55,351 nt of DNA from a virus: the IMG/VR virus record IMGVR_UViG_3300044846_001270, positions 1 to 55,351 of that record, one strand, 5' to 3'. Made by a program: the position numbers and the translations under genes. The notes beneath the pieces were generated by a model, which saw only the letters and a list, made by a program, of their open reading frames with translations, did no database searches and had not been told where the DNA came from. The stretch's first letter is position 1; every line of letters begins with the position of its first letter. Positions 4,112 through 49,347 of this stretch are shown one piece after another.

Positions 4112-7100
4112 TTATCCTAACCAACCTGACCGCCAGTAAATTTGCAGTTGCGGGGATGCCGTAATTGCGTCAGAACCGTAGTCATTGAATGTAATTGAAT
4201 TATTTCCTGGTTGTAGATATATCCAGTCTACAACAGGGTCTAGTAATCCTCTAGAACTTCCTGTTTGCTCCCCATTAGTAAAATCACCTTTATGTACCTC
4301 ACGAATTTTAGTGTCAATATCTAAGTACTCTAAAAGCGATGTATTATTTTCATCTGGTAGTAGAACCTGAAGAGTTCCTGAAATTGGAGCAATAATTGTC
4401 ATAACTTGCCTAGTGGTGTTGTTAATTATTTCTGCTGGACCAAATAGAGGACCGACAACTCTAAAGTAGCAATAAACATTTGAAGTTCCACTGTTTATGA
4501 CTGTTGTAGATGCCGAGATACCAGTTTTACCTGCATTTAAATCGTAGTCTCTATCGTACTCTCTAAATTTTTCTATGTCCGTTGTATCGTAGTCTGTGTT
4601 ACCGTACTTGTCATACGTTTCAGCATAAATACTTGGATAACCAAACTCGCCAATAGTTTTGATGTTATAACCGTTTGCAACTGCTTGAGTCCCTACAGGA
4701 ACATTGTCTGCTGTTCCTTCAATCCATTCATATTTAATAGGGTCAGCAGCCTTAAGACCGATTGAAAACTCAATACGACCTCTATTATTAACTGTACTAA
4801 TGTTTGGTCTACCGCTCAATCTTACAAAGCAAGCACGCTTATAATTGTCTTCATCTACAACAAACCACGTACCACGTCTAACTAAATTAAATGCAGAAAG
4901 AAGTTTTTGTCTAGCAGATGCACTAGCAGCAGCAATCCCACCACGAGAGGAATCTGTCACAAGAACAGAACCGTTAATAGTTATTACTCTTGCAGCACTA
5001 CGACCAGAAACATCAAAAGAACCATCACCAAAGCCTCGTTCGATATCAGGAATCTGAGGCTCGGGAAGATTCCACCAACCATCAATATCCGAGATTACCC
5101 AAACTAGACCGTCAGAGTCGATAGTGTTAAATGTTAAATAGTCAACTTGGTTTTCAAGGAGAACTCTTATATCGCCAGCAAGTTTTGGACCAAAGTTATA
5201 TCGGTCCTGCTCCGCGTGTATAGGTGTAAGACCTTTATTAATAACACTAAGAACGTAGTCCCGCGAAGATGGGGTACCAGACACGGCAACAGAGCGAGCA
5301 CTAGCACCTATTTTATTTATTGCTCTTACAGTTACAGAATATAAAGTACCATTTGTCAGACCCGTAGCACGAAGGGTGTTAGTTTCAAAGTAACTAGAGT
5401 ATGTAACCCCAGCATCCAAGGAGTATTGGTAGTAAACAATAGGGCTTCCACCGTTGTTTAGAGGTGGGGTTACGGAAATAATTAAAGCATTATCAGAGGG
5501 AGACACGCTAAGAATTGAAGGAGCATTAGGTACTGTTGCTGGAATTGCTTCTACAGCATTAGATGGCTCGCCAAATGCAGCAAAAGTCGATGCTCTAATT
5601 GTTACTAAATATGTAACTCCATTAGATAAACCAGATATAACTATAGGAGCAGTAGAAACACTTAATGAGGTAGTAGATGTTGAAGAAGGGTCTACAGGGT
5701 ATACAAAAGTCCAAGTATTATTTCCATCAAGTGAGTACTGATAGTTAGTAATAGTGTTAGTGCCGTCGTAGGTAGGCGGAGTAAAAACTACAGTAAGAGA
5801 GCCATTTCCTGAAGCAATAGACGTAATTGTCGGAGGGCTTGGAACATTAGAAGGAGTTCCAGCAACACCGTTAGAGGAAAGACCTGAACCAACGCTATTT
5901 ATTGCTCTTATGTATACGGTATATTCGACTTGGCTCTCAAGACCAGTGATTCTTACAGGTGTAGTAGTATCTGTAGGACTAAAAGCATCCCACACCCCCG
6001 ATGTGGATGTAGGGCTTGTACCTAATGTTAAAGAACCATTAGAAGCAACATAAGCAATAGTGTATGTTACAGAACTAGGTACCGATAAAACTACATAATC
6101 TTTAATTTCTACGTCTGCAGTTAAATTGTATGTGGACGCAGAAACTCCAGCAACCATTCCATGTGCCGTAGCAGTAGTTATTGTTGCAATGTTGCTAGAG
6201 ACAGTGGCAGAAGAAATTACTACTGTTGCTGAGGTGTATGAGTACGCATAGTTTGATATAGCGTTCCCACCAGTAGAGGTAGGAGCAATAAAGTTTACAT
6301 CTAAGTAGTCACCACCTCTACTAACTGAGGTAATAATAGGAGTAGTAGGAACACCAGGCTTTACTAAAATACCTGTAGAAGCATCTCCAGCATCCCCTGA
6401 CGAGTTAACAGCGCGAAGTTTTACAACGTATGCAACATTGTTTGTAAGACCAGTAATTGTCACGGGACTAGTAGTGTTTGCTGGACTAAATGCTGTAAAT
6501 GTTAGACCGTCATCCAAAGAGTATTCGTAGTTTGCTACCCACTCAGGGTAAGTAGTCGGAGCATTAAAAGTCAGTGTTATTTCTGTGTCACCGTGAGAAG
6601 CGCTAGTGATTGAAGGGGCAGATGGAGTTTGTTCTTGGTGGTATATATACGTAGCGCCGTTACCGCTATTAGGCGATGTATCTTCATCTGGAGCACCAAC
6701 AAAAAAAGTCAAACCATCGTCAGACACAGCAACTGAAACACCAAGGGAATCACTTGTTGCTGGGTCTGATGCTAAAAGTTTTTGTTGCTGTGTCCATACA
6801 CCTGCTGAGCGGGTGAATACATATGCAGCGCCATTGTCTGTATTAGGGGAGGTGTCTTCGGCATCGGCACCGATAAGGGCTACATTTCCGTCTGCGGATA
6901 TAGAAACTGAAACACCTAAAGTTTCATTTGATGCAGCGTCTGATGCTAGGATTTTTTGTTGTTGGGTCCATGTAGAACCTGAGCGGGTGAATACATATGC
7001 AGCGCCATTGTTTGTGTTTGGGGATGTGTCTTCACTTGGAGCACCAATAATTGCAGTTAGACCATCTGAAGATAGAGACACCGAGTAACCAAAACTGTCG

Positions 7101-7858
7101 AGTGTTGCTGGGTCTGATGCTAAAAGTTTTTGTTGTTGAGTCCATGTACCTGCTGTGCGGGTAAATACGTAGACTGCGCCGTTGCCTGTGTTAGGGGAGG
7201 TGTCCTCACCACTAGCACTAATTAAGGCTGTATTACCGTCTGATGAAAGGGCGACCCCCCAGCCAAAAAAATCATCTGTTGCGGGGTCAGACGCTAGGAG
7301 TTTTTGTTGCTCAGTCCACGCGCCAGACTCATAAATAAATACGTATGCAGCGCCGTTGGTTGTGTTTGGGGATGTGTCTTCTAGGTAAGCGCCAACAATT
7401 AGTGACAATCCGTCTGCTGAGAGGGAAACTGACCAACCAAAACGGTCACCTGTTGCAGGGTCAAATGCCGAAAGTGTCTGTTGCTGTGTCCATACACCTG
7501 CTGAGCGGGTGAATACATATGCAGCGCCTATGCTTGACGTTGCACCACCAAGGTCAGATAAAGGAGCACCAATTACTACTGTATTTCCGTCTGCTGAGAT
7601 GGAGACTGATTTACCAAATCGGATGTCGTTTGAAGACTCTGATGCTAAAAGTTTTTGTTGCTCAGTCCATGTAGAACCTGAGCGAACGTAGACGTAAACT
7701 GCGCCATTGTCTAAAAAAGAATCACTATTCTCTAGGGGAGCACCAATAACTGCGGTGTTTCCATCTAGAGAAATATCAACAGAGGCTCCATAGGAATCAC
7801 CAGATTCGCGGTCTGATGCTAGAAGTTTTGTTATATAGGAGGAACTAATAAAAGTCAT
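4112..7858 (-). CDS. Distal tail (Dit-like) protein fused to FG-GAP propeller and FN3 domains
   Basis: I place the start at the ATG at 7858: it overlaps the tape-measure stop as TAATG and has GGAGAGG upstream; a start eight codons earlier would lie inside the tape measure. The protein (1248 residues) has three parts. Residues about 7-407 are seven FG-GAP/integrin-alpha-type repeats (LLASDPAT..D.FG.SVSLS.DG, GAP.EDTSPNT.NGAAYVFTR), enough for one closed seven-bladed propeller. Residues about 410-865 are four FN3 domains; the second is interrupted by an HG beta domain. Residues about 868-1248 are a Dit/siphovirus tail-component domain (YNFGPKLAGDIRVLLENQ, VITINGSVLVTDS, RIEFSIGLKAADPIKYEW). Dit forms the hub joining tail tube and tip. 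The long N-terminal extension probably projects and may bind sugars or proteins on the host. Confidence 0.85.
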   Translation of the reverse strand: MTFISSSYITKLLASDRESGDSYGASVDISLDGNTAVIGAPLENSDSFLDNGAVYVYVRSGSTWTEQQKLLASESSNDIRFGKSVSISADGNTVVIGAPLSDLGGATSSIGAAYVFTRSAGVWTQQQTLSAFDPATGDRFGWSVSLSADGLSLIVGAYLEDTSPNTTNGAAYVFIYESGAWTEQQKLLASDPATDDFFGWGVALSSDGNTALISASGEDTSPNTGNGAVYVFTRTAGTWTQQQKLLASDPATLDSFGYSVSLSSDGLTAIIGAPSEDTSPNTNNGAAYVFTRSGSTWTQQQKILASDAASNETLGVSVSISADGNVALIGADAEDTSPNTDNGAAYVFTRSAGVWTQQQKLLASDPATSDSLGVSVAVSDDGLTFFVGAPDEDTSPNSGNGATYIYHQEQTPSAPSITSASHGDTEITLTFNAPTTYPEWVANYEYSLDDGLTFTAFSPANTTSPVTITGLTNNVAYVVKLRAVNSSGDAGDASTGILVKPGVPTTPIITSVSRGGDYLDVNFIAPTSTGGNAISNYAYSYTSATVVISSATVSSNIATITTATAHGMVAGVSASTYNLTADVEIKDYVVLSVPSSVTYTIAYVASNGSLTLGTSPTSTSGVWDAFSPTDTTTPVRITGLESQVEYTVYIRAINSVGSGLSSNGVAGTPSNVPSPPTITSIASGNGSLTVVFTPPTYDGTNTITNYQYSLDGNNTWTFVYPVDPSSTSTTSLSVSTAPIVISGLSNGVTYLVTIRASTFAAFGEPSNAVEAIPATVPNAPSILSVSPSDNALIISVTPPLNNGGSPIVYYQYSLDAGVTYSSYFETNTLRATGLTNGTLYSVTVRAINKIGASARSVAVSGTPSSRDYVLSVINKGLTPIHAEQDRYNFGPKLAGDIRVLLENQVDYLTFNTIDSDGLVWVISDIDGWWNLPEPQIPDIERGFGDGSFDVSGRSAARVITINGSVLVTDSSRGGIAAASASARQKLLSAFNLVRRGTWFVVDEDNYKRACFVRLSGRPNISTVNNRGRIEFSIGLKAADPIKYEWIEGTADNVPVGTQAVANGYNIKTIGEFGYPSIYAETYDKYGNTDYDTTDIEKFREYDRDYDLNAGKTGISASTTVINSGTSNVYCYFRVVGPLFGPAEIINNTTRQVMTIIAPISGTLQVLLPDENNTSLLEYLDIDTKIREVHKGDFTNGEQTGSSRGLLDPVVDWIYLQPGNNSITFNDYGSDAITASPQLQIYWRSGWLG

Positions 7859-10800
7859 TACACGCCTCTCCTCATGGACCAAGCAATTTGACGAGATACA
7901 TTATGAGCCATCTCTACTTCATCCATCCCCTGTGAAGGATACACATTTACTACAGTTGATGCTCCGCCAGCGTTAACAGAAGAAAGTTTGTTGTTAGGTA
8001 TGATAGTGCCTGAAGAAGGAGCCTGGAAAAATTCTGGACCTTTTTCTCCAACCAGGTAAGTTTTTCCTTGGCTAACTGGACCACCTAAAGCCTTAGCAGG
8101 GAGTTTAGTTACTTCAACATAGAGGGGGTCTTGGCTATTGTTGCCCTTACCAAACTTAATTGTCATTGCTTGTTCAATCTTAGCCTTAAACTCTATAACT
8201 TCGTTTCGTATTTCTTTAAATTCTCCAGTTTTTCCTTGAATAGTGCTTCTACTACCAGTACTAAGTTTTTCAAGTTCCGCTAACTGGGTCACCAACATTT
8301 GAAGGTCTCCAAGACCACTCGCTTCAAATGTTTTCTTAATTGTTGCTGGAGTTAGAGCAAGTTTATCCGCTAATCTTTCAGCCTCATCTCCAAAAATTCC
8401 AATTTTTTCAGCGCTTTCAATAAAGGCAGCCCTACCGTCTTCCATGATTTTAGTTGTTGATGCTTGAGTACCACCAAGTTCTATGTCCTTTTTAATAGCA
8501 TCAAGTACAGAAGCAGAGTAGCCATATAGAGCGTCTTCTTTTTGTTCGAGAGACAGACTTCCATCTTTTATAGTAGTGGTCAGTTTATCTGTTTCTTCTT
8601 TAAATGCCTTTGCAGCGTCTCTAGCATTAATAAGAGAACGAGCACCTTTAGTAACAATATCGAATACGTCTTCTAGTCCTTGACGAACTGTTGCTTGAAT
8701 ATCTTTTAGGCTTCCAAATTCTTTATAAAGATTAGCAGCAGAAGCAGCAGTCGCTTCTATCTTCTTTCTAGCCTCGTCTTGAGCAATAATTAGAGGGTCT
8801 GTGGAGTTTTCAAGGTCTTTAGTGGCTTGTCTTGCATCATTCATGTAAGGAACGTATGGGATATCCTTGAAAGGATTTAAAGAGTTTAGGGCATCAATAA
8901 TTGTATTAACGCCATCAATTATTCCGTCAATAAAATTCTCAAAAGCCTTCTGTAGAGGCTCAAAACTTCCAGTTCTGATTGATTGGAATAGACCAATCCA
9001 AAGCCCTACAAAACCTTTAATGTAGTTAATAAAGATTGTAAGGTTACCAATAAAAGTTACAATAAAGAAAGTTGCTAATTTAATAAGAAAGGTATACCAA
9101 ATTGTAAGTGGAGGCATGACATATTTAGCAACAAAGTCTCCCATTTTTTTGAAAATATCAGAAACATTTTCAATGTCAGGCATAAGTTTTTGAAGTGCAC
9201 TTTTAATTAGTTCCCAACTTGCTACTAATTGGTCTTTAAGTGCTTTACCAAGTTCTGAAACAGCCTTTCTTAAATCTTCGCTGTTTTTGTACATCAAGTA
9301 AAAAGCACCAGCAACTACAGCAATTGCAGCGACTACGAGTAAGACTGGCCAGGTAGCGCCAATCCAAGCAACAGCAAGACCTCTAAGAGCGCCAATAAGT
9401 TTTGGAATTGCAGTTAGTTTTGTTTTTATTCCTGTTAGGAAACCCGCAGAAGCCCCACCAGAGGCTTTAAGTGCTGCAGTTTGCATTACAATTGCTTGAG
9501 TTAGTCCAAAAGTATGAGCAGTTGCTTTAAAAGATGCAGGCACTAGAAGAAGTAAGTTTCCAAGAAGAACTTTAAAAGCAAAACTGGCTACTGTTCCTAT
9601 AAGTCCAATAGCAAGGGTTATTCCCTTAACAGCAGCCAAGAATAAGAATACTTTTTGAACTATTTCGTTACTAAAAATAGCAACTAGGATTTTTAACGCT
9701 CCATTTAAAATAGAGAAGAACATTTGAATTCCACCAGTCTCGGTGAAAGCCTTAAGAAGTAGAGCGATGTTTACTAAAAACTCTCCAAAAACTGGACCTG
9801 TCTTGGTCAACTTGCTAAAGATGTCTGCAAAAATAGCAGGAATAGGCTTGATTGCATCAAAGAAAGCCTTAACTCCTTCGTTACCGCTAATTTGGTAAAA
9901 CATTTTTGCTACTTCGCCGAGGAAGCCACCAATAGCAATTATGTTATCTGCTATTGCATCAAACTTTTCTTGTAGCGCCCCTGTACGATTACCCTCATCT
10001 GCGAACGCTTTAAGTTTGTCAAAAGCACCTGCAAACGCATCAATAATTTTTTTACCAGAATCGCTTGCCCCCGCTCCAAGAGACTTAAATGCACCGAAAG
10101 CACTACTCAACAGTCCGCCAATACTTTTAGCAAACTCTCCTGCTCTTTCAAAAGATGTAGTTAGTTCTCCTGTAGCATTCTTAAATCTCATAGTGCCAAC
10201 CCAAGCGTCAGCAGTTTTCTTAATAAACTCAGAGAACTGTAAAGTCAAAGGCGAAACAGCATCAAGAATGTTAAGTGCCCCTTCAGCAACGTCAACAAAT
10301 GCTTCACCAAGATTTCTCATAATCTCGATGTTTGCTCCACCAAATACTCGCTTAATAATGTCTAAATTATCTACACGGGTGAGCATTTCAGTGAATTTAC
10401 GAGCAATATTTCCAATTACTCCGCCCATCTCGGTAAGCATTGGCTTTAAGACAGGGAACAGTTTCGTAACAAGCATGTCAATGGACACAGTGAGAGGACC
10501 AAACAGGTTTTCACCAGCAGCGGCTCTAAGTTTTAAAAACTCTGGTTTTAAGTCTGCAACATAAAGAGCAAACCTTCTTGCCTCTGCCGAGAGGTCTTTA
10601 AGAAGGTCAACTGAAGCAGCAGAGTTTTGGTTAGTTTTTTGCATAGCGCGCTGTAGTGCAAGTTGCGCTTCAAGAATATCTTGCGCGTTATCGCGCTGGG
10701 TCTTAGCGAGGTCTGCTTCTGCCTCTGCAAGGTCCTCTTTTGCTGCCTGAACTTCTTTAGTTCCTTCAATACCAGTTTCAGCAGCGTACTCCTGAGCCTT

Positions 10801-11631
10801 AGCAAGGTCGTTTGAGCGGTCTGCTGCTTGTCGATAATCTAAGTCTGCTTGCTTAAAAGCAAGTTCGGCTTCACGTCTAGCGCGAGAATCAGGAGGAAGG
10901 TCTTGGACTCGAAGAAGAGTTTCCCGAGCGCGTTCCAACTCAATTGCTGCTTTTTGTTGCGCAATAGCAGCGTCTTCAGCATCAAAACCAAGTTGCTGTA
11001 ATGATTCAGCGCCTTCTTCGTAGGCTTGGTTAAGCGCTACCTGAGATTTGCGAACCTTGTCATTGGCTGCAGCCATTTTTTCAGCAGCCTGTTGGTAGAC
11101 CATAGCAAGTCTTTTACGAGCATCCTCAATAGCAGCATCGTTGTTGGCTCCACCACCAGCACTCGAGCCAGTTTTTTGTTTAAGAAGAGCGCCAATACCT
11201 TTTGCCACGCCACCAAAGGCAAGTTTTGCCGTTAAAGCCCCTTGTGCAACCGCTGCCAAAAGTCCAGGCAAAACTGCAAGTGCAGGTGCTGCAGCGCCAA
11301 CGGCAGAGCCCATAGCAAATAGTCCCATGACTAAATCGCCAACAGCGCTTACAGCACCAGCAATTGCTGGACCAAGAGCATACCCAGTTTTAATTAACTT
11401 GTTGAATGTTTTTCTGGCTCCTTCTGCTTCTTTTTCAAGCCTAGAAAACGGACTTTTACCTCCGCCTCCCATGCCTTTAGACACAGAGCGACTAAAGTCT
11501 TTACCGACATCTTCACCCATCTTTTTTGTGACAGGTTTGATATCTTTAAGAGCATTTTCTACATCTTCTTTAAAGCCAGCAGTTACTGCCCTTATGACAA
11601 TATTTGCCGAGCCAATATTTGTTACAGCCAT
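7858..11631 (-). CDS. Tail tape measure protein
   Basis: This 1257-residue protein is directly downstream of the tail assembly chaperone pair and upstream of the Dit-like gene, the standard position of the tape measure. The N-terminal 330 residues are helical and rich in Ala/Lys/Glu with coiled-coil character (for example AQAELALQRAMQKTNQ-type stretches). Several long hydrophobic segments occur at about 80-135, 640-700 and 745-775 (AVAWIGATWPVLLVVAAIAV), typical of tape measures that insert into membranes during DNA ejection. The C-terminus has GGPVSQGKTYLVGEKGPEFF, common at tape-measure ends. The protein sets tail length; by the usual length rule it implies a tail somewhat under 200 nm. No peptidase motif was recognised. 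Confidence 0.95.
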   Translation of the reverse strand: MAVTNIGSANIVIRAVTAGFKEDVENALKDIKPVTKKMGEDVGKDFSRSVSKGMGGGGKSPFSRLEKEAEGARKTFNKLIKTGYALGPAIAGAVSAVGDLVMGLFAMGSAVGAAAPALAVLPGLLAAVAQGALTAKLAFGGVAKGIGALLKQKTGSSAGGGANNDAAIEDARKRLAMVYQQAAEKMAAANDKVRKSQVALNQAYEEGAESLQQLGFDAEDAAIAQQKAAIELERARETLLRVQDLPPDSRARREAELAFKQADLDYRQAADRSNDLAKAQEYAAETGIEGTKEVQAAKEDLAEAEADLAKTQRDNAQDILEAQLALQRAMQKTNQNSAASVDLLKDLSAEARRFALYVADLKPEFLKLRAAAGENLFGPLTVSIDMLVTKLFPVLKPMLTEMGGVIGNIARKFTEMLTRVDNLDIIKRVFGGANIEIMRNLGEAFVDVAEGALNILDAVSPLTLQFSEFIKKTADAWVGTMRFKNATGELTTSFERAGEFAKSIGGLLSSAFGAFKSLGAGASDSGKKIIDAFAGAFDKLKAFADEGNRTGALQEKFDAIADNIIAIGGFLGEVAKMFYQISGNEGVKAFFDAIKPIPAIFADIFSKLTKTGPVFGEFLVNIALLLKAFTETGGIQMFFSILNGALKILVAIFSNEIVQKVFLFLAAVKGITLAIGLIGTVASFAFKVLLGNLLLLVPASFKATAHTFGLTQAIVMQTAALKASGGASAGFLTGIKTKLTAIPKLIGALRGLAVAWIGATWPVLLVVAAIAVVAGAFYLMYKNSEDLRKAVSELGKALKDQLVASWELIKSALQKLMPDIENVSDIFKKMGDFVAKYVMPPLTIWYTFLIKLATFFIVTFIGNLTIFINYIKGFVGLWIGLFQSIRTGSFEPLQKAFENFIDGIIDGVNTIIDALNSLNPFKDIPYVPYMNDARQATKDLENSTDPLIIAQDEARKKIEATAASAANLYKEFGSLKDIQATVRQGLEDVFDIVTKGARSLINARDAAKAFKEETDKLTTTIKDGSLSLEQKEDALYGYSASVLDAIKKDIELGGTQASTTKIMEDGRAAFIESAEKIGIFGDEAERLADKLALTPATIKKTFEASGLGDLQMLVTQLAELEKLSTGSRSTIQGKTGEFKEIRNEVIEFKAKIEQAMTIKFGKGNNSQDPLYVEVTKLPAKALGGPVSQGKTYLVGEKGPEFFQAPSSGTIIPNNKLSSVNAGGASTVVNVYPSQGMDEVEMAHNVSRQIAWSMRRGV

Positions 11632-12819: not shown

Positions 12820-13326
12820 CTATGGCACCGCAATCGTAAAGGTAGCGCTAACTGCTTGAAAACCACCCTCTGGAGAGGGCACATCTACAGTTCCAATGAC
12901 ACCTAAACCAAATGCTCCAGTGGTTTCCCACTGGTCTAAAAACGCAACGCAGTCAAGCAGAACCCAAGCGTCTACAGCAGCGATATACGAACCTTGCTCA
13001 ATCTTGTCTGATGTAGGAACTAAACCTTTTCCAGATGTTGTAGGAATTTGGCGCACAACTGTTGCTTTGAGTACGGCGCTACGAGGAGAGTTGCAACGCT
13101 GAGGGGCGGTTGCTTCATCTCCCGGAGGACCAATATAGAGTTGTTGAAAAGATACAACTAATTGTTCGCAATCAAAAGCCTCTTGACCAGCCATCCAATA
13201 TTGACGAGGAGGCAAAGTTACGGCGTGAAAGGCATATCTATCTACAATAACCTGCAGAATATCATCTAAAAGATTCTTTAGACTTAGAGAGTCAGCAGAC
13301 ACACCAGTTACACTGGTAATCGGCAT
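12820..13326 (-). CDS. Probable tail terminator / head-tail joining protein
   Basis: This 168-residue protein lies between a 55-residue gene and the gp10-like neck gene. It starts with a helix (SLSLKNLLDDILQVIVDRY), followed by LPPRQYWMAGQEAFDCEQLVVSFQQLYIGPPG and a C-terminal beta region ending FQAVSATFTIAVP. The pattern of an N-terminal helix, a Cys-Glu-Gln segment and alternating strands is similar to actinophage proteins annotated as tail terminators. The position just before gp10-like and chaperone genes agrees. No catalytic motif is seen. The assignment is from pattern and order and could instead be a head-tail stopper. Confidence 0.5.
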   Translation of the reverse strand: MPITSVTGVSADSLSLKNLLDDILQVIVDRYAFHAVTLPPRQYWMAGQEAFDCEQLVVSFQQLYIGPPGDEATAPQRCNSPRSAVLKATVVRQIPTTSGKGLVPTSDKIEQGSYIAAVDAWVLLDCVAFLDQWETTGAFGLGVIGTVDVPSPEGGFQAVSATFTIAVP

Positions 13327-13496: not shown

Positions 13497-13560
13497 TATT
13501 TTTCCTAACGGTAGGTGGTGGTTCTATTTTATCCTATTTTTTCCGTGGTTATTTGTAGCC

Positions 13561-13779
13561 TTAGATTACTATTCCACAAGAATTAAGTATGTTTTTTTCG
13601 TACTCATTTAGGTCTAAAGTTCTTATTTTTTCTGTCAAAGTTTGAGTAGCCGAATCTGTAGCAGCAGTTTTTTCTAGAAAAGACTCTCTAATTTTGGTCG
13701 TAACCTCAGTAACGCCATTACAAGTTGCGCAATCTCCGCCTAAGGCATCTGGTCCTGCGCACGCTGGACATTTTACCAT
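13561..13779 (-). CDS. Small zinc-finger-like protein (72 aa)
   Basis: The product begins MVKCPACAGPDALGGDCATC, with two CxxC pairs spaced like a zinc ribbon or DnaJ-type zinc knuckle, followed by a helical segment (TQTLTEKIRTLDLNEYEKN). The start has a strong AAAGGAGATACTAAA leader. It lies between the delta-60 fibre gene and the neck genes in the late operon. The four cysteines predict zinc binding. The function is unknown; an assembly factor for the adjacent fibre or neck proteins is possible but unsupported. Confidence 0.75.
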   Translation of the reverse strand: MVKCPACAGPDALGGDCATCNGVTEVTTKIRESFLEKTAATDSATQTLTEKIRTLDLNEYEKNILNSCGIVI

Positions 13780-13792
13780 TTTAGTATCTCCT

Positions 13793-16168
13793 TTAAGATG
13801 TTAAATCTCCGCCAAGTCTAGCAAGATGAGTTCTGGTTACTTCATTAAATCCTTGAAAGCCTCCACCTAAGATGATTTTACCGTCAGACTGGATTGCTAT
13901 TGAGTTTACCGTGCTGTCTACACCTGTACCTGTATTTGTTGTAAAGGCGGTGTCCTGTGTGCCGTCTGTGTTAAGGCGAACTATACGGTTTACGGTTACT
14001 TCGTTGAAGGTTGTAAAGCCTCCACCTAAGATGATTTTACCGTCAGACTGGATTGCTATTGCGCTTACGCTGTTGCTTGCACCTATACCTGTATTTGTTG
14101 TGAAAGTAGTGTCCTGTGTGCCGTCTGTGTTAAGGCGAACTATACGGTTTACGGTTACTTCGTTGAAGGTTAAAAATAAACCACCTAATACAATTTTACC
14201 GTCAGACTGGATTGCTATTGCGCTTACGCTGTTGGGTGCACCTGTACCTGTATTTGTTGTGAAAGTAGTGTCTCGTGTGCCGTTTGTGTTAAGGCGAACT
14301 ATACGGTTTACGGTTACTCCGTTGAAGGTTGTAAAGGCACCACCTAAGATGATTTTACCGTCAGACTGGATTGCTATTGCGTTTACGCTGTTGGGTGCAG
14401 GACCTGTACCTGTATTTGTTGTAAAGGCGGTGTCCCGTGTGCCATCTGAATTTAGGCGAACTATACGGTTTACGGTTACTGTGTTGAAGGTTGTAAAATC
14501 ACCACCTAATACAATTTTACCGTCAGACTGAATTTTTATTGAGTTTACCGTGCCGTTTGTGCCTGTACCTGTATTTGTTGTGAAAGTAGTGTCTCGTGTG
14601 CCGTTTGTGTTAAGGCGAACTATACGGTTTACGGTTACTCCGTTGAATGCAGGGAAAGCACCACCTAAGATGATTTTACCGTCAGACTGGATTGCTATTG
14701 AGTTTACCGTGCTGGTTGCACCTGTACCTGTATTTGTTGTAAAGGCGGTGTCCTGTGTGCCGTCTGTGTTAAGGCGAACTATACGGTTTACGGTTACTCC
14801 GTTGAAGGTTGTAAAGCCTCCACCTAAGATGATTTTACCGTCAGACTGGATTGCCACTGCGACTACTGACAGTCCTGCACCTGTATTTGTCGGAAACCCA
14901 GCGGTGTCCTGTGTGCCGTTTGTGTTAAGGCGAACTATACGGTTTACGGTTACTCCGTTGAAGGTTGTAAAGGCACCACCTAAGATGATTTTACCGTCAG
15001 ACTGGATTGCTATTGCGCTTACGCTGTTGCTTGCACCTATACCTGTATTTGTTGTGAAAATAGTGTCTCGTGTGCCATCTGAATTTAGGCGAACTATAAG
15101 GTTTACAGTTACTCCGTTGAATGTAGAAAAGGTACCACCTAATACAATTTTACCGTCAGACTGGATTGCTATTGCGTCTATTGAGGTGCTTGCGGCTGTA
15201 CCTGTATTTGTTGTGAAAGTAGTGTCTCGTGTGCCATCTGAATTTAGGCGAACTATACGGTTTACGGTTACTGTGTTGAAGGTTGTAAAATCACCACCTA
15301 ATACAATTTTACCGTCAGACTGAATTGCTATTGCGCGTACTGTGCTGCTTGCACCTGTACCTGTATTTGTTGTAAAGGCGGTGTCCTGTGTGCCGTCTGT
15401 GTTAAGGCGAACTATACGGTTTACGGTTACTCCGTTGAAGGTTAAAAATAAACCACCTAATACAATTTTACCGTCAGACTGGATTGCTATTGCGCTTACG
15501 CTGCTGGGTGCACCTGTACCTGTATTTGTTGTGAAAGTAGTGTCTCGTGTGCCGTTTGTGTTAAGGCGAACTATACGGTTTACGGTTACTCCGTTGAAGG
15601 TTGTAAAGGCACCACCTAAGATGATTTTACCGTCAGACTGGATTGCTATCGAGTTTATTGAACCGTCTACACCTGTACCTGTATTTGTTGTGAAAGTAGT
15701 GTCCTGTGTGCCGTCTGTGTTAAGGCGAACTATACGGTTTACGGTTACTTCGTTGAAGGTTAAAAATAAACCACCTAATACAATTTTACCGTCAGACTGA
15801 ATTTTTATTGAGTTTACCGTGCTGGGTGCACCTGTACCTGTATTTGTTGTAAAGGCGGTGTCCTGTGTGCCGTCTGTGTTAAGGCGAACTATACGGTTTA
15901 CGGTTACTCCGTTGAAGGTTGTAAAGGCACCACCTAAGATGATTTTACCGTCAGACTGGATTGCTATTGCGTTTACTGAGCCGTTTGCAGCATTGTAAAC
16001 ATCATACGTAGCAAAAGAACTATCGTTTACTCCAGCAGATAAAAACCAATTTTTCCACTCCCCAGAAACATTTTCCCAAGCCTCTGGAGAAAATTTCCAA
16101 GTTCCCCCTACTTTTATGTAAGGAGCCGCTTCTTTCCATGTCCCAGAAGCATTTACATACCCAGGCAT
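13793..16168 (-). CDS. Fibre/whisker protein of 14 delta-60 (beta-propeller) repeats
   Basis: The 791-residue protein has an N-terminal anchor of about 45 residues with three W-K turns (ASGTWKEAAPYIKVGGTWKF, then NVSGEWKNWF). It is followed by 14 tandem repeats of about 53 residues with the delta-60 signature (IAIQSDGKI-I/V-LGG-x-FTTFNGVTVNRIVRLN, then DGTQDT-x-FTTNTGTG). Repeats of this type form beta-propeller blades, and 14 would give two seven-bladed propellers. The repeats are nearly identical except at a few positions, and the DNA is a long tandem array. The gene starts in TAATG overlap with the collagen-like gene, so the two are translated together. It probably forms an exposed adhesin on the head, neck or tail; which one is inference. 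Confidence 0.85.
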   Translation of the reverse strand: MPGYVNASGTWKEAAPYIKVGGTWKFSPEAWENVSGEWKNWFLSAGVNDSSFATYDVYNAANGSVNAIAIQSDGKIILGGAFTTFNGVTVNRIVRLNTDGTQDTAFTTNTGTGAPSTVNSIKIQSDGKIVLGGLFLTFNEVTVNRIVRLNTDGTQDTTFTTNTGTGVDGSINSIAIQSDGKIILGGAFTTFNGVTVNRIVRLNTNGTRDTTFTTNTGTGAPSSVSAIAIQSDGKIVLGGLFLTFNGVTVNRIVRLNTDGTQDTAFTTNTGTGASSTVRAIAIQSDGKIVLGGDFTTFNTVTVNRIVRLNSDGTRDTTFTTNTGTAASTSIDAIAIQSDGKIVLGGTFSTFNGVTVNLIVRLNSDGTRDTIFTTNTGIGASNSVSAIAIQSDGKIILGGAFTTFNGVTVNRIVRLNTNGTQDTAGFPTNTGAGLSVVAVAIQSDGKIILGGGFTTFNGVTVNRIVRLNTDGTQDTAFTTNTGTGATSTVNSIAIQSDGKIILGGAFPAFNGVTVNRIVRLNTNGTRDTTFTTNTGTGTNGTVNSIKIQSDGKIVLGGDFTTFNTVTVNRIVRLNSDGTRDTAFTTNTGTGPAPNSVNAIAIQSDGKIILGGAFTTFNGVTVNRIVRLNTNGTRDTTFTTNTGTGAPNSVSAIAIQSDGKIVLGGLFLTFNEVTVNRIVRLNTDGTQDTTFTTNTGIGASNSVSAIAIQSDGKIILGGGFTTFNEVTVNRIVRLNTDGTQDTAFTTNTGTGVDSTVNSIAIQSDGKIILGGGFQGFNEVTRTHLARLGGDLTS
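13850..15990 (-). repeat. Tandem DNA repeats, period about 159 bp, 14 copies
   Basis: The repeated core on the plus strand includes GATTTTACCGTCAGACTGGA and CGAACTATACGGTTTACGGT, spaced at about 159 bases. Copies differ at only a few codons, and several copies share the same variant combinations in different order. This suggests recombination or gene conversion between copies. The array encodes the delta-60 repeats of the fibre gene. Confidence 0.9.
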
Positions 16169-19149
16169 TATGTATACCTAAACCAGAGGTCTCCATCACT
16201 ACCACCAGTTGGTCCTGATGTTGATGCAGTTATTTGATACAAATACCCTCCCGTTGTGCCTTGAGTACCTGTTATGCCTTGGGTTCCAGCACCTGTATTT
16301 CCTTGGATACCTTGTATACCTTGTATACCTGTTGCGCCTTGAGCACCTGTTGTTCCTTGAATTCCTTGAGCGCCTGTTGGTCCTGGAGGTCCATAAAATC
16401 CTTCTGGTCCTTCTGGTCCAGTTATGCCTTGAATACCAAGTAATCCTTGTATGCCCTGAAGACCTTGAATGCCTTGAGCACCAGTCGCGCCGTTAGCACC
16501 TGCCGCGCCAGGTGCGCCAGGAGTACCTTCTGTACCAATTAATCCTTGGATGCCTTGAATGCCTGTAGCACCAGTTTCTCCAGTTGTGCCTTGGATACCT
16601 TGCTCACCCTGAGGTCCATTATCGCCAATAGAACCAGTAAGACCTATATCTCCAGTTAGACCTATTGTGCCTTGGGTTCCTTGGATGCCTTGGGTTCCTT
16701 CTATACCTTGGATTCCTTGATTTCCTGTAAAGCCTTGAGTTCCCTGAACTCCTTGCACCCCTTGCAGACCCTGAATACCTTGAGTACCCTGTAAACCTTG
16801 GGTGCCTTGTAATCCCCAGGTGCCCTGAACACCTTGTAAACCTGTAGAGCCTTGGATGCCTTGAGGACCTGTATCGCCGATGTCTCCTGTGCGTTGGAAT
16901 GTTATTTGCATTTCCTCAGCGTCAGTGAAGGATGTTACAGACCCGCTCAGGTAGGAAACTGGGATGTGGTAATGATTGTTGTAGTTTATGTGGCTTCCAG
17001 TAATAGAAACCATAACAAAATTTTCAGGGTTGGTGCTACTTTGTAGTTTAAAGTTACCCTTCACTGAAGATGTAGAGTCATCAACAGTATCTAGAAAACT
17101 AGTAACATCTATATTGTTTGCGTCAAAGTATGAGATAAGTAAAGTTGTTGCAGAAGATATAGTGGTGTTATCAAAACCTAAAATCCCGCTTGGGAAATCA
17201 TCATGTATTTCTATAGGAAATGAAGTTTCGTAAACATACTCAAACGCTGCTCCACCAAATGAACCTGTGAGACCTTGGGTGCCTGTAGAGCCTTGAATAC
17301 CTGTAGTGCCTTGGATGCCTTGGATGCCTTGAGTACCCTGGATTCCCGTTGCCCCTTGCATACCTTCGGTGCCCTGAATACCCTGCGTTCCTTGTAGACC
17401 CTGAGTGCCTTGGACACCTAGTAGACCTTGAAGACCTTCGATGCCTTGGATTCCTGCTACACCCTGTAGACCAGTACTACCTTGCGCACCAGTTGTACCC
17501 GTTTCTCCTGTGAGCCCTTGAGTACCTGCAGAACCTTGTACACCTATAAAGCCTTGGATTCCAGTTATTCCTTGGACTCCTAGCATGCCTTGAGTACCCT
17601 GTAAACCTTGGGTTCCTTGGATTCCTTCTATACCTTGATTACCCTGAATACCTAATAAGCCCTGAGTTCCTGTCTCGCCAGTCGAACCTGCCGAGCCTTG
17701 GATGCCTTGGACCCCTTGCTCGCCTGTCGTGCCTTGTATACCTATTGTGCCTTGGATACCTTGCTCGCCTTGGAGACCTATTGCGCCTTGGAGACCTTGG
17801 ATGCCTTGAGTTCCAGTCGTGCCAGTGTTTCCCTGAGTACCTTGAGTTCCTTGAGTTCCTGTTTCACCAGTCGAACCTGTTGGTCCTTGAATTCCTTGAG
17901 CGCCTGTTGGTCCTGTAGCGCCAGTGTCGCCAATCGAACTTAAAAGAGTCCAGTCAAGAGACGTAGAACCTGGAATAGGTGGAGAGAATTGATTTGCGCG
18001 AGATGCATACCACGTAGAACCTTCATAAGTAACAACATCTCCAGTTACATACTCAGCGCTTTCTACATACTCTCCTTGAAAATTCCATAATGCATCTGTT
18101 CCCGTTATGCCTTGAGTCCCCTGAATACCCTGAATACCTTGTAAACCTGTAGAGCCTTGGATGCCTTGGACCCCTTGCTCTCCCGTTGCGCCTTGGATAC
18201 CTGCTATGCCTTGGGTTCCTGTAGAGCCAGTCGAGCCTTGGGTACCCTGTGCTCCCGTTTGACCTGTTTCTCCTTGCGCACCCTGAGCACCATTAGTGCC
18301 CTGTATTCCTTCTACCCCTTGAACACCGTTAACCCCTATGGTGCCTTGTGTGCCAGTTGCGCCTTGAGCACCTGTTGCACCCTGTAAACCTGTTGTCCCT
18401 TGTGAACCTGTTATCCCTTGACTACCTGTAGAACCTTGAACACCAAGTGCGCCTTGAATACCTGTGGTGCCTTGGACTCCTGTTGTTCCTTGAGTTCCCT
18501 GAACGCCTTGAAGACCAGTTGTACCTGTTGCACCTGTTATGCCTTGAGTACCTGTCTCGCCTTGAATGCCTTGGGTTCCTTGGATACCTAACCCAGTTTC
18601 GCCTTGAATGCCTGTAAAACCTTGTAAGCCAGTCGCGCCTTGAGTGCCTGTTGTGCCTTGGATTCCTTCGGTGCCTTGTGCGCCTGTGAAGCCCTGCGTT
18701 CCTTGTATGCCAGTCGCGCCTTGAGTACCTGTCTCGCCTTGGGCACCAATTAAACCTTGGATACCCTGTGCGCCAGTCGAACCTTGCGTTCCTATTGCGC
18801 CTTGGATTCCTGTACTGCCTTGGATTCCTTGAGCGCCTGTAGTTCCTTGTGCTCCAACGCTTCCTTGTATGCCAGTTGCGCCTTGCGTACCAGTTGTGCC
18901 CTGAGTACCCTGCAAACCTTGAGTGCCTTGGAAACCTAGAGAGCCTTGAATACCTAAAGAGCCAAGAACACCAGCAGTGCCTTGCGCTCCTGTTATGCCT
19001 TGTAGACCCGTCTCACCTTTAGCGCCCTGAGGACCACTTCTACCAAGTTCTACAGTTGAATTAACCTCAACGAGGGCAACTTTATTTACATTACTGCCAT
19101 CTTCTATAGATACTGAAACTACTTCGCCATTAATTTCTACTGAACTCAT
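16168..19149 (-). CDS. Large collagen-like fibre protein (993 aa)
   Basis: The first 35 residues (MSSVEINGEVVSVSIEDGSN) form a globular anchor. Most of the rest is Gly-X-Y triplets of the type GIQGTQG and GTTGLQG. Two globular interruptions occur: one near residue 355-410 with YVTGDVVTYEGSTWYASRAN, similar to the CBM5/12-like chitin-binding pattern, and one near 640-770 (FEYVYETSFPIEIHDDFPSG to EEMQITFQRTGD). The protein ends in a short cap (GGSDGDLWFRYT). Gly-X-Gln triplets are typical of bacterial and phage collagens, which form trimeric rods; about 800 residues of triplets implies a rod over 200 nm long. The start overlaps the connector stop as ATGA. Its position beside the connector suggests a head or neck fibre. 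Confidence 0.9.
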   Translation of the reverse strand: MSSVEINGEVVSVSIEDGSNVNKVALVEVNSTVELGRSGPQGAKGETGLQGITGAQGTAGVLGSLGIQGSLGFQGTQGLQGTQGTTGTQGATGIQGSVGAQGTTGAQGIQGSTGIQGAIGTQGSTGAQGIQGLIGAQGETGTQGATGIQGTQGFTGAQGTEGIQGTTGTQGATGLQGFTGIQGETGLGIQGTQGIQGETGTQGITGATGTTGLQGVQGTQGTTGVQGTTGIQGALGVQGSTGSQGITGSQGTTGLQGATGAQGATGTQGTIGVNGVQGVEGIQGTNGAQGAQGETGQTGAQGTQGSTGSTGTQGIAGIQGATGEQGVQGIQGSTGLQGIQGIQGTQGITGTDALWNFQGEYVESAEYVTGDVVTYEGSTWYASRANQFSPPIPGSTSLDWTLLSSIGDTGATGPTGAQGIQGPTGSTGETGTQGTQGTQGNTGTTGTQGIQGLQGAIGLQGEQGIQGTIGIQGTTGEQGVQGIQGSAGSTGETGTQGLLGIQGNQGIEGIQGTQGLQGTQGMLGVQGITGIQGFIGVQGSAGTQGLTGETGTTGAQGSTGLQGVAGIQGIEGLQGLLGVQGTQGLQGTQGIQGTEGMQGATGIQGTQGIQGIQGTTGIQGSTGTQGLTGSFGGAAFEYVYETSFPIEIHDDFPSGILGFDNTTISSATTLLISYFDANNIDVTSFLDTVDDSTSSVKGNFKLQSSTNPENFVMVSITGSHINYNNHYHIPVSYLSGSVTSFTDAEEMQITFQRTGDIGDTGPQGIQGSTGLQGVQGTWGLQGTQGLQGTQGIQGLQGVQGVQGTQGFTGNQGIQGIEGTQGIQGTQGTIGLTGDIGLTGSIGDNGPQGEQGIQGTTGETGATGIQGIQGLIGTEGTPGAPGAAGANGATGAQGIQGLQGIQGLLGIQGITGPEGPEGFYGPPGPTGAQGIQGTTGAQGATGIQGIQGIQGNTGAGTQGITGTQGTTGGYLYQITASTSGPTGGSDGDLWFRYT

Positions 19150-20876
19150 ATTGTGGTCACTTCGGGGGTTACAACGAACTGACCCTCAAGCAACCTAGTA
19201 ACAGTTCCACTACTTGAAGTCAACTCTAAATCGTAAACATAACTTCCATCAATCAAATCTGAGGTGTAGTCTGCATCAATAGTAACTACAATAGTTCCAG
19301 CAGCGCCACCTAAAGTAATACCAGCATTAAGTGTAGATGTAGGGCTTGTGCCAAGTACTAAGGCACCGTTTGTAGCCGCGTAAGCAATGGTAAATGTTGT
19401 TGCAGTAGGCGCAGACAAAACAATATATTTTATTGAACCTGAACTTGCAGTTAAGTTAAACAGGGTAATGGTGCTACCAGAAGTGAGACCATGATTAGTT
19501 GCTGTTGTTACAGTAGCAATATTGCTAGAAACAGTAGCGCTGTTTATTACTTTTGTTGCACCTGATGTAGAGACCAAAGACAACGCTGAACTTGTGCTGG
19601 AGTAAGATGCCCTAACCTGCATTGCAGCAGTGTAGTTAGTTATATCTACTGCAACTCCGTCAATGCTCCAAGTCATTGTACGAGTAAATGTTGCACCTTG
19701 CTGACAAGTAAGTCTTGTCGGGGTAGCAGAAGTTGTAGATACAGGGTTAATCTGGCTTTGTAGAACTTTCTTAATTTGAAGATTACCTTCAAGAAGTTGA
19801 ATGGTAGCACCAGTTCCGTCTACGGCATAAAGAACCCATTTACCTGGGTCATTTGGACCTAAAGCACCATAGGTGTTCATATAAGCAAAAGTTAAATCTA
19901 TGTAGGTAATTCCACCACTAGTAGAAAATGCAGCAGAAGTAGAAGCGTAGGTCTTCGTGTAGTAACCATTCCAACTAACAGCCTCGAGACGTAAGGTGTA
20001 AGAAGCATTGTTATATGCAGTTAGACCAGCATTTGCGCCAGTACAGGTAATAGTCTTACTTCCCGTGAAACTATTTGCACTTGATAAAACAACATCTTTT
20101 GTTGCATCAGCAGTTAGAACAATAGGACGGCTAGGAGCAGCGCGACGAGCGCGAGGGATGTCAGGGCTAAATACCTTTGAAGGAGCAAGAGCCTTGGAAG
20201 GATTGGCAGTTTTGATAAATAAATCAACAGCATAGATGCCGATGCGCATATTCTCAAGAAAGTCTTGATTATCAAGAACAGTATAGGAAACGCCCTGCCG
20301 AGAAATAGATGTAACGCGGTCTGGAAGAGCGCAATCGTCTCCAGTCCAAAACTTAATAAGTTCAATTGCAAAAAGTTTTGCAGCCATACGACCAGCAGTA
20401 GGAACTCTAATTCCGTATGTGTAGGTGACTTCTACGTTTCCTGGCGGCCAGGGGGTACCAGTGTAGGCGCGAATTTCGCTATGCTCTGCGACATAATAAT
20501 AGTCAGGGTTGATAATTTGACCATCATACAAAGAACGTAGTAAATGAATTTCCTGCACTGGTTTTCCACGTAAACGAATGCGGGAAAGCGAGGAAGTGCC
20601 ATCAGTTTGGTATGCGGAGTCGTTCCAGTCTTCTGAAGGCATGTTATACACAGACCCGTTTACCAAGTGAGGCTGAAAATTGTTTGCAGAAATTCCTTGG
20701 TAGCGAAAAGCATCAATAGATGTGATGTAACGCTCTGTCACCGTTGATATGCCGTGATACTTACGACCAGACATAGCCCAAAGGATGTTAGATGCCATTT
20801 GGCAAGCGTCGTCGGCATACTCTGAATCAGAGTATGTTGCGCCTAAATCAGAAGGTACTACCCAAAGATTTGTCAT
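19146..20876 (-). CDS. Head-tail connector with appended beta domains
   Basis: Residues 1-230 look like a gp6-type head-tail adaptor: helices (DDACQMASNILWAMSGRKYH), a beta insertion with PVQEIHLLRSLYDGQ and VEVTYTYGIRVPTAGRMAAK, and a C-terminal helix (NMRIGIYAVDLFI). Actinophage connectors usually end near here. In this protein about 345 more residues follow: a beta domain (VLTADATKDVVLSSAN), a segment similar to the N-terminal domain of lactococcal baseplate protein BppU (QGATFTRTMTWSIDGVAVDI), an HG beta domain (about 455-535) and a final strand-rich end. The extension could be the attachment site for the two fibre proteins encoded next. The connector call is from pattern and order. Confidence 0.65.
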   Translation of the reverse strand: MTNLWVVPSDLGATYSDSEYADDACQMASNILWAMSGRKYHGISTVTERYITSIDAFRYQGISANNFQPHLVNGSVYNMPSEDWNDSAYQTDGTSSLSRIRLRGKPVQEIHLLRSLYDGQIINPDYYYVAEHSEIRAYTGTPWPPGNVEVTYTYGIRVPTAGRMAAKLFAIELIKFWTGDDCALPDRVTSISRQGVSYTVLDNQDFLENMRIGIYAVDLFIKTANPSKALAPSKVFSPDIPRARRAAPSRPIVLTADATKDVVLSSANSFTGSKTITCTGANAGLTAYNNASYTLRLEAVSWNGYYTKTYASTSAAFSTSGGITYIDLTFAYMNTYGALGPNDPGKWVLYAVDGTGATIQLLEGNLQIKKVLQSQINPVSTTSATPTRLTCQQGATFTRTMTWSIDGVAVDITNYTAAMQVRASYSSTSSALSLVSTSGATKVINSATVSSNIATVTTATNHGLTSGSTITLFNLTASSGSIKYIVLSAPTATTFTIAYAATNGALVLGTSPTSTLNAGITLGGAAGTIVVTIDADYTSDLIDGSYVYDLELTSSSGTVTRLLEGQFVVTPEVTTI

Positions 20877-23243: not shown

Positions 23244-25226
23244 TTAGAACTCTACAGTTGCTGATGCTGTACCAGCAAGAGTGTCGCGCAATGCAGAGCG
23301 AGCACCGTTGATGCTGATTGTTGAAGTTACCTTGATGGATTGAACGCCAACCTTGGCGATTCCTTCAAAGGTTTCAACGAACATCTTGTAGTCGTTGGTG
23401 CCAACAAGGGTTGAGTCACGAATAACTCCAAGGTCAAGCGTGCCACCATCTAGGAACAAGAATGTTCCTTCAGCGAATAGGTACCATACGAATGTGTCGT
23501 AGAACTCATTCATAGCACCTGAACTCTGCGCAGCGTATGCATTTGCATCGTCCAAGTGGAATGTAGCGTTTACGCCACGGTCACGTAGGTAACCTTCGAT
23601 TTCGCTGTCAGATACAGACAACTTGTTGTCGCCTGGCATTTGCAGAGCAAAGTCAGAGCGAATAGCAGCCTTAATCCATGCTGGAGCAACAAGACGCAAC
23701 TGAGCATCGTCAACCATACGGTGACGTGCACGGTACTGTGAAGCAGCGCGGCTAACCTGAAGCAGGAAGTCTACGCCAAGACCAAGTACGTTGGTGCTTG
23801 TTACAGCAGTGGAACCGCTACTTAGAGCAGAAAGAAGGTTCTCTTCTGCTTCACGAGCGTGCTGAATCAGACCTAGTTCGTTGTGACGAGCAATAAGTTC
23901 TGGGTAAGCACGAGTAGCAAGGTTACCGAACTGCATCTGCAGGGTTACTGCATCTGCAACTGCGGTTGTTTCGGTTGCAGCAGTTACAACAAGGTTTGCC
24001 TTGGTAGCACTTGAAGTAGCCGAATCGGTTACGTAAGCGGTGTCAAGAGCAGTTGTCCATACGCCAACAGCGTTGCCATATGAAGACAATACTGGTGGAA
24101 CGATGTAACGGATACCGCCACGGTCTGCTTGGAATGATGGCAAAGAGTCGCGGATTGGGCGAACATTGGAGCCAATTCCAAAGATTTCGTAACGGGTAGC
24201 AAATGGAGACTGGTATGAACCAGAAGCGGTAAGAGCACTTGGAGCACCCTTAATCTTTTCCATGTTTGCTTCTGCATCGCTACCAAGTTGCATTGATTCT
24301 GGGTATGCGGTGCTAAATGATGCAACGATGTGCTGTTCGCCGTCGCCACCGTTTACGCGGCGCAAGCCGTGTAGACGCTTGGCGAATGCATCTGCTACAT
24401 CGCTCATGTCGGATAGTTCTGTACCTGCAGTCACACCTGGGATGTCAGCGCCAGCAGTAATTGCTACTGGAATGGCAGTTGTCATCGAAGCGGGACGGCG
24501 GTCGGCTGGGACTTCAGGAGTTACATCCTGAGCGTCAAAAGCAGCGGCGGTCACTGTTGCCTCTTCCTGCACCTCTACTGGTGCATCAATTGGGGTTTCG
24601 GTTTCTTCGGTTGAAAGTTCAACAACTTCTTCTGTTGATAATTCAACAGTTTCTTCGGTTGAAAGTTCAATAGTTTCTTCTGTTGATAGTTCTGCTTCTG
24701 CAACTGGTGCTTCTTCGGCAACAGGTGCTTCTTCAGTAACTTCTGGTTCTTCGGTAGAAAGTTCGATAACTTCTTCCGCAATAGTTGATGCTTCTTCAAC
24801 TGCTGATACTTCATCGGCTTCAGCAGATGCCATAACTGGCTTCTCTTCTTCCTTTTCCATACCTTCAGCGTCATCCTCTACTGGAGTCTCAGTCTCGACC
24901 TCTACTTCGGTCTCTTCTGGCATTTTTTCCATGTCAGTATCTTCCTCTGGTTGTTCGGTCGCGGCTTCCATCTCCTCGCCGTGCACACGAGCACTGGCTT
25001 CACTTGCTGTTGCAGCAAGTTCTTCAGCCTGTACTTCGCGACGCTGTACTTCAGAACGAACTGAATCAAGCATGTCGGCTAGTGAGGTCATCGCCTCAAC
25101 TGTTTGGGGAGTTGGTTCTTCGCTTTCGACCGATTCGAACTGGCTGATGATTTCACTCTGAAGTTCGACCATTTGTTCGTCGGATAATTCAGGCATGTTT
25201 TCCATCATGTTTATAATGCGGTCCAC
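23244..25226 (-). CDS. Major capsid protein with N-terminal scaffold domain
   Basis: I choose the GTG at 25226 because GGAGGAGGG lies six bases upstream; the longer frame from 25262 would run through that ribosome binding site and encode an odd Cys/Pro-rich start. Residues 1-230 are acidic and helical with repeats of ELSTEE/VELSTEE, the composition of a scaffold (delta) domain. Residues from about 290 form an HK97-type capsid protein (TRYEIFGIGSNVRPIRDSLP, IAKVGVQSIKVTSTISINGA). The upstream gene encodes the maturation protease, which would remove the scaffold. Where cleavage occurs is not visible. Fusion of scaffold and capsid is known from HK97; here the delta domain is long. Confidence 0.85.
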   Translation of the reverse strand: MDRIINMMENMPELSDEQMVELQSEIISQFESVESEEPTPQTVEAMTSLADMLDSVRSEVQRREVQAEELAATASEASARVHGEEMEAATEQPEEDTDMEKMPEETEVEVETETPVEDDAEGMEKEEEKPVMASAEADEVSAVEEASTIAEEVIELSTEEPEVTEEAPVAEEAPVAEAELSTEETIELSTEETVELSTEEVVELSTEETETPIDAPVEVQEEATVTAAAFDAQDVTPEVPADRRPASMTTAIPVAITAGADIPGVTAGTELSDMSDVADAFAKRLHGLRRVNGGDGEQHIVASFSTAYPESMQLGSDAEANMEKIKGAPSALTASGSYQSPFATRYEIFGIGSNVRPIRDSLPSFQADRGGIRYIVPPVLSSYGNAVGVWTTALDTAYVTDSATSSATKANLVVTAATETTAVADAVTLQMQFGNLATRAYPELIARHNELGLIQHAREAEENLLSALSSGSTAVTSTNVLGLGVDFLLQVSRAASQYRARHRMVDDAQLRLVAPAWIKAAIRSDFALQMPGDNKLSVSDSEIEGYLRDRGVNATFHLDDANAYAAQSSGAMNEFYDTFVWYLFAEGTFLFLDGGTLDLGVIRDSTLVGTNDYKMFVETFEGIAKVGVQSIKVTSTISINGARSALRDTLAGTASATVEF

Positions 25227-48677: not shown

Positions 48678-48740
48678 TTTGGATTTGGTCGCTGAGGCGG
48701 CTGTCGTTGTTTCGTACACTTGTTCTAATCGTTTCGGCAT

Positions 48741-49347
<607 letters not shown>

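Follow-up and report, generated by a model that had tools for sequence, protein, structure and literature searches.

The HNWD genes het-d, het-e and het-r of Podospora anserina encode arrays of near-identical blades that undergo concerted evolution and exchange, that vary at hypervariable fixed sites and that have been modelled as two seven-bladed propellers (PMC12222747, PMC2873952). High blade identity, with homologues that are similar only blade by blade, is also a property of the highly repetitive beta-propellers of recent amplification that Pereira and Lupas describe (2022, PMC9218822). Among phages, the parts of PMC4901313 that treat phi11 Gp45, PRD1 P2 and PhiKZ gp131C place beta-propellers in known or putative host-recognition proteins, and receptor-binding proteins diversified by diversity-generating retroelements (DGRs), such as the tentaclins (PMC10743442), show concentrated variability in phage host recognition. 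Our literature search found no paper on DUF5122 propellers in phages. Here we describe such a gene in IMG/VR record IMGVR_UViG_3300044846_001270, the whole of which (55,351 nt, hereafter the window) was analysed. The reading that we favour, and regard as fairly probable, is that its product is a tail adhesin of two seven-bladed rings, and that gene conversion among the blades re-mixes its binding face.

The propeller gene, its units and its predicted fold

A single ORF on the minus strand of the window (13793–16168) encodes a protein of 791 aa, which matches the PF17164 (DUF5122/delta-60) profile over 14 stretches with an E-value of 7.9e-196 and 634 bits, against a curated cut-off of 27. DUF5122 was the only Pfam family with independently passing stretches in this protein, WD40 giving a weak whole-protein match, and Tandem Repeats Finder returned a period of 159 for the array, with 13.3 copies and a score of 2809. 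The protein comprises an N-terminal part of 62 aa, 13 units of 52–54 aa and a final unit of 40 aa; the units of odd length are unit 7 (52 aa), which carries the aberrant connector DTAGFPTNTGAG, unit 10 (54 aa) and the truncated unit 14 (40 aa). Its features are as follows.

13793..16168, minus strand: propeller gene with 14 DUF5122 (delta-60) units, 791 aa (from the ORF, Pfam and the unit alignment)
15983..16168, minus strand: N-terminal part, residues 1–62, with three V-x-G-x-W-K-like motifs and NDSSFATYDVYNAAN (putative role discussed below)
14873..15982, minus strand: units 1–7, probable first seven-bladed propeller (assigned from unit counts and from the model of residues 416–791)
14873–15028, minus strand: unit 7, 52 aa, with an aberrant last segment
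13796..14872, minus strand: units 8–14, second seven-bladed propeller as predicted by AlphaFold2 for residues 416–791
13796–13915, minus strand: unit 14, truncated to 40 aa, ring-closing

An earlier note on this DNA had described 14 almost identical repeats with variation limited to a few positions. The 14 units are real, but they are merely similar, the eleven units of 53 aa sharing 79–96 % DNA identity (mean 87 %), and variation is wider than had been supposed: 21 of the 53 unit columns differ in amino acid, nine differ at synonymous sites only and 23 are invariant. All of the sites that had been named do vary, namely the residue after LGG (column 19), F-x-T-F (21), N-G/E/T (25), D/N-G (37), T-Q/R (40) and the linker (52–53 and 1–2); the list was nevertheless incomplete, having omitted columns 4 (N/S/R/D/V), 5, 7, 15 and 43.

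For the half-array spanning residues 416–791, AlphaFold2 predicted a seven-bladed propeller with high confidence (pLDDT 93.9, pTM 0.92) from an alignment of 69 seven-unit stretches; the seven-unit range had been chosen beforehand, so that the model is in itself no proof of the number. The model aligns with solved seven-bladed propellers over 280–286 residues, with Z of about 31 and an rmsd of 2.2–2.4 Å. A full-length AlphaFold2 model built with a four-row alignment had a pLDDT of 31 and was set aside, and a sequence search of solved structures gave chance matches only. Among proteins that no contig end truncates, drawn from viral and bacterial relatives and including several near-identical contigs, seven units were counted 18 times, 14 units 18 times and six units, the next most frequent number, six times, with single cases at 21 and 28. 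Fourteen units are present in L002–L004 (identical over their shared DNA), in L005 and L006 and in L048 and L054, and the 12 and 13 units detected in L008 and L009 become 14 once long gaps are filled. Furthermore, the aberrant connector of unit 7 is found at the same place in the window array, L002, L005 and L048, as expected of a seam between two rings. Given the confident half-array model and counts that peak at seven and 14, two tandem seven-bladed propellers are the most likely predicted arrangement of the 14-unit protein, the fold of the second half coming from the model and the 2 × 7 split from the counts of seven and 14 together with the aberrant unit 7.

Propeller rings are usually closed by an N-terminal segment that completes a truncated last unit. 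The segment NDSSFATYDVYNAAN resembles the end of a unit and probably closes the first ring by supplying the missing segment. The three V-x-G-x-W-K-like motifs of the N-terminal part are also present in L002, L005 and L048, and this part is a probable attachment module. In another viral contig of 135 kb (L012), three consecutive ORFs at 5320–11449 each carry seven to nine DUF5122 units.

Exchange between blades and the location of variable sites

In permutation and shuffle tests, which treat blades as exchangeable and ignore relatedness among them, the incompatibility of informative sites within 20 bp in the window array was 0.187, against 0.491 under shuffled site order (0/5000), and the longest identical inter-unit tract was about 144–145 bp, against a mean maximum of 66 with columns shuffled (0/2000). 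Site incompatibility grows with distance, and linkage falls from 0.61 at 1–5 bp to about 0.1 beyond 25 bp, decaying within about 10–20 bp; the minimum number of recombination events (Rm) within the 159-bp unit is six. Short allele blocks, in which synonymous and amino-acid variants are mixed (columns 42–44 read ACC-GCC-TTT or ACT-ACT-TTC), reappear in differing combinations across units. The longest tract is shared by two units that lie eight units apart, a sign of recent exchange between distant blades.

15504..15648, minus strand: 145-bp tract in unit 3, identical to 14232–14376 (exact repeat)
14232..14376, minus strand: 145-bp tract in unit 11, second copy (exact repeat)

The recombination signal was repeated in two homologous arrays, L002 and L048. 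Mean unit identity is 0.78 within the window gene versus 0.70 to L002, and we rejected a one-to-one descent of blades by position, as only unit 14 of the window matches its own positional counterpart in L002. By these comparisons, the blades undergo concerted evolution. Shuffling by recombination between units, as the earlier note had proposed, is well supported.

A natural variant was found in L045–L054, a set of contigs that come from several metagenomes, represent a single phage population and are 99.6–100 % identical where in register. Unit 6 of L046 and L051 differs from that of L048 by three synonymous differences within 16 bp; the L046 ORF otherwise agrees with L048 throughout its first 1330 nt. 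Up to 55 bp of the alternative tract match unit 1 of that array exactly. All three alternative alleles, which are the majority allele, also occur together in several further blades, and the donor is not certain. The change looks like a short gene-conversion tract.

In the secondary structure of the model, strand a occupies columns 3–8 and is followed by a turn (9–13), strand b (14–18), the b–c loop (19–30), strand c (31–34), a turn (35–41), a helix (42–47) and a connector (48–53 and 1–2). An antiparallel meander of this kind brings the b–c loop and the connector to one end. Variability over eight arrays was highest in columns 19 and 4, followed by 53 and 2, column 4 lying near the start of strand a, where it adjoins the end of strand b. 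Connector and b–c loop columns exceed the rest in variability (permutation P 0.002), and the a–b turn is almost invariant. The topology of the confidently predicted propeller thus supports a location of the variable columns on the face of b–c loops and interblade connectors, in keeping with the earlier proposal that variable residues line a ligand face, and burial of these residues in the core is not indicated by the strand topology of the model.

Array-wide dN/dS was 0.56 for the window, 0.21 for L002 and 0.35 for L048. When the seven most variable window columns were followed in seven other arrays, they changed at 0.90–1.99 times the array-wide synonymous rate, and the remaining columns of the same arrays at 0.16–1.08 times. 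The comparison shows columns released from constraint; this is compatible with diversifying selection, of which it is not proof, and relaxed constraint also fits these rates. Neutral amplification would derive the array from repeated amplification of blades, as is common in young propellers; variation in the loops would then reflect a lack of constraint, and exchange among near-identical repeats would be incidental and serve no repertoire. This account draws on the same data: columns 19 and 4 vary in all arrays examined and, out of sample, change at roughly the synonymous rate, array-wide dN/dS lies below 1, and single-blade amplification is documented across propeller families (PMC9218822). 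One recent amplification, however, gives no mosaic allele blocks with synonymous markers, nor does it explain why several homologues retain both the 14 units and the aberrant unit 7. We consider this account rather unlikely, with the qualification that neutral gene conversion would be compatible with these observations.

The tail-fibre cassette and the number of blades

The propeller gene is placed within the tail module, in a cassette whose parts and neighbours are listed here.

13533..19087, no strand: variable tail-fibre cassette (L041 matches the DNA down to about 19087 and again from 13533)
19146..20876, minus strand: head-tail adaptor, upstream of the cassette
16168..19149, minus strand: 993-aa collagen-like tail fibre gene of the same cassette, directly upstream of the propeller gene, with start/stop overlap
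13561..13779, minus strand: 72-aa Cys-rich ORF inside the cassette, downstream of the propeller gene
12820..13326, minus strand: conserved neck-region gene of 168 aa, beyond the downstream end of the cassette

On both sides of the cassette L041 is 84–86 % identical to the window in DNA and its interior is replaced, the content being a 1411-aa collagen-like protein that ends in a Peptidase_G2 domain, with no propeller. The matches of L042 and L043 to the window stop at 13539–13541; at the cassette site L042 (neck protein 80 % identical) carries a propeller gene and tail-collar genes, and L043 has tail-fibre-like genes, with no propeller near. DSL-LC01, the closest isolated phage that we found (from a lake, capsid 65 % identical, host recorded as Actinomycetia), has its adaptor and neck genes 3 bp apart and lacks the cassette, and DUF5122 was not found in its 30-kb stretch. 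Searches of isolated-phage records with the propeller by tblastn and blastn gave no match, to which the low-complexity filter may contribute. In homologues, the propeller gene is preceded in L054 by genes for a collagen fibre and a CBM_4_9 tail fibre, and in L003 by a lectin-like (Laminin_G_3) gene. The swapped or absent cassette in relatives, together with the neighbours of the homologues' propellers, therefore points to an exchangeable host-recognition cassette. From this gene context, which is where the adhesion suggested in the earlier note finds its support, we infer an adhesin role. The host of the window phage is probably an actinobacterium, to judge from its capsid and tail relatives.

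A role in the structure or attachment of the tail or neck, in which the variable face meets a co-varying phage protein and not a receptor, would suit a gene that lies between the adaptor and neck genes and adjoins a collagen-like fibre. The whole cassette is, however, absent from DSL-LC01 and swapped in L041 and L043, which places the propeller gene outside the conserved tail core and makes such a role, in our judgement, unlikely.

The window, L041, L042 and L043 share a sharp common boundary at 13500–13541, where they converge at the conserved TAAAATAGAACCACCACCTACC, a stretch immediately ahead of a small gene, itself followed by the neck gene; this boundary is possibly a promoter or a recombination site. 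A reverse transcriptase (PF00078) gave no match in the 55-kb record, which is possibly a fragment, and we rejected the array as a DGR target on the basis that no reverse transcriptase is linked to it in this record.

Several other features of the record were observed. A 1256-aa minor tail protein (4112–7882, minus strand) with seven FG-GAP_2 repeats and an fn3 domain is a probable second propeller in the tail region, and a diverged 174-bp tandem repeat lies within its gene (6755–7528). Between the portal and capsid genes, a giant protein of 4119 aa (31909–44268, minus strand) contains an RNase_T exonuclease domain at residues 1556–1721, and a protein of 1709 aa just upstream of the capsid gene (25376–30505, minus strand) contains a Ferritin-like domain at residues 1244–1385. 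The major capsid gene contains short tandem repeats of 24 and 18 bp in its N-terminal part (24601–24752, minus strand), and long low-complexity repeats with ATTTTT, GCCTAT and TGTATG-like units occupy a region without clear genes at 48739–49345.

The number of units is nearly fixed across relatives, and the sequences of the blades are not. Full-length homologues of the same architecture have 14 units and the family peaks at seven and 14, against the earlier suggestion of change through copy number. Within the population L045–L054, 13 units are present in L045, L047, L049 and L053 and 14 in L048 and L054, and L047 and L048 align without a mismatch over 3566 bp of upstream and 4638 bp of downstream flank. 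The difference in unit number falls on a 157-bp exact direct repeat at which other contigs break, shift frame or misjoin, and it is thus not separable from assembly collapse. A repertoire in which binding is altered by gain or loss of blades could appeal to this one population, with 13 or 14 blades between identical flanks, and to some other repetitive propellers in which blade number varies (PMC9218822); with the other homologues at 14 and the 13/14 case on an exact repeat, we do not accept that variation arises mainly through copy number, and regard such a repertoire as very improbable. An exact flank-pattern search found no other contig of the window phage in the searched set, from which near records are possibly absent. 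Production of the mosaic or of the unit order by short-read assembly of the repeat is the least credible reading of all, for although an exact repeat of 145 bp is present in the window array and short-read assemblies of fungal HNWD arrays are unreliable (PMC12222747), the mosaic alleles are linked over 10–20 bp, far under read length, the pattern is repeated in two other arrays, unit number agrees with homologues and the unit-6 variant is common to two metagenomes.

Proposed mechanism and comparison with known systems

In the tail adhesin that we propose for this lake phage, an N-terminal attachment module would precede two tandem seven-bladed propellers in a protein of tail-fibre type, and the variable face, made up of b–c loops and connectors, would probably bind host surface glycans or proteins. 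Blades trade short DNA tracts via gene conversion or unequal recombination, as shown by the statistics and by one natural polymorphism, and this exchange would keep the scaffold uniform and re-mix the residues of the binding face. Because two rings have to close, blade number would stay at 14. A repertoire under selection is, for now, a testable idea. More tentatively, and with somewhat less than even confidence, the gene may be read as a combinatorial adhesin of 14 interchangeable blades in two rings, with binding-face residues subject to short-tract conversion, a prokaryotic-virus counterpart of fungal HNWD and an alternative to DGRs. If true, the phage varies its host-binding surface by exchange between blades, without a retroelement or phase switch, in an apparently independent parallel to the fungal HNWD receptors.

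Phage and bacterial DUF5122/delta-60 (PF17164) propellers share with this protein the unit family, the seven or 14 units and the way in which rings are closed, whereas internal unit identity is ≤ 0.51 in the bacterial DUF5122 arrays that we retrieved, a set chosen for similarity to the window protein, versus 0.78 here. The recently amplified propellers of Pereira and Lupas (2022) differ in that they arose by independent single-blade amplification, and the main text of that paper is without DUF5122, phage, recombination or gene conversion. The propellers of phi11 Gp45, PRD1 P2 and PhiKZ gp131C are five-bladed or form a single seven-bladed ring, and the parts of PMC4901313 that treat them hold nothing on repeat shuffling. 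Tentaclins and other DGR-diversified proteins (PMC10743442) are set apart by their mechanism, as the phage array varies by inter-blade exchange and the window has no reverse transcriptase. The HNWD genes encode WD40 repeats in a fungal NLR immune receptor, whereas the phage gene encodes DUF5122 units in a tail-fibre cassette, and HNWD is the case for which diversifying selection and an effect on specificity were shown. Membership of the HNWD family was rejected, since it calls for an NLR that bears NACHT and HET domains as well as WD40 repeats, and what we found is DUF5122 in a 791-aa phage gene. Fungal HNWD is the closest parallel to this phage gene in mechanism, although not in family.
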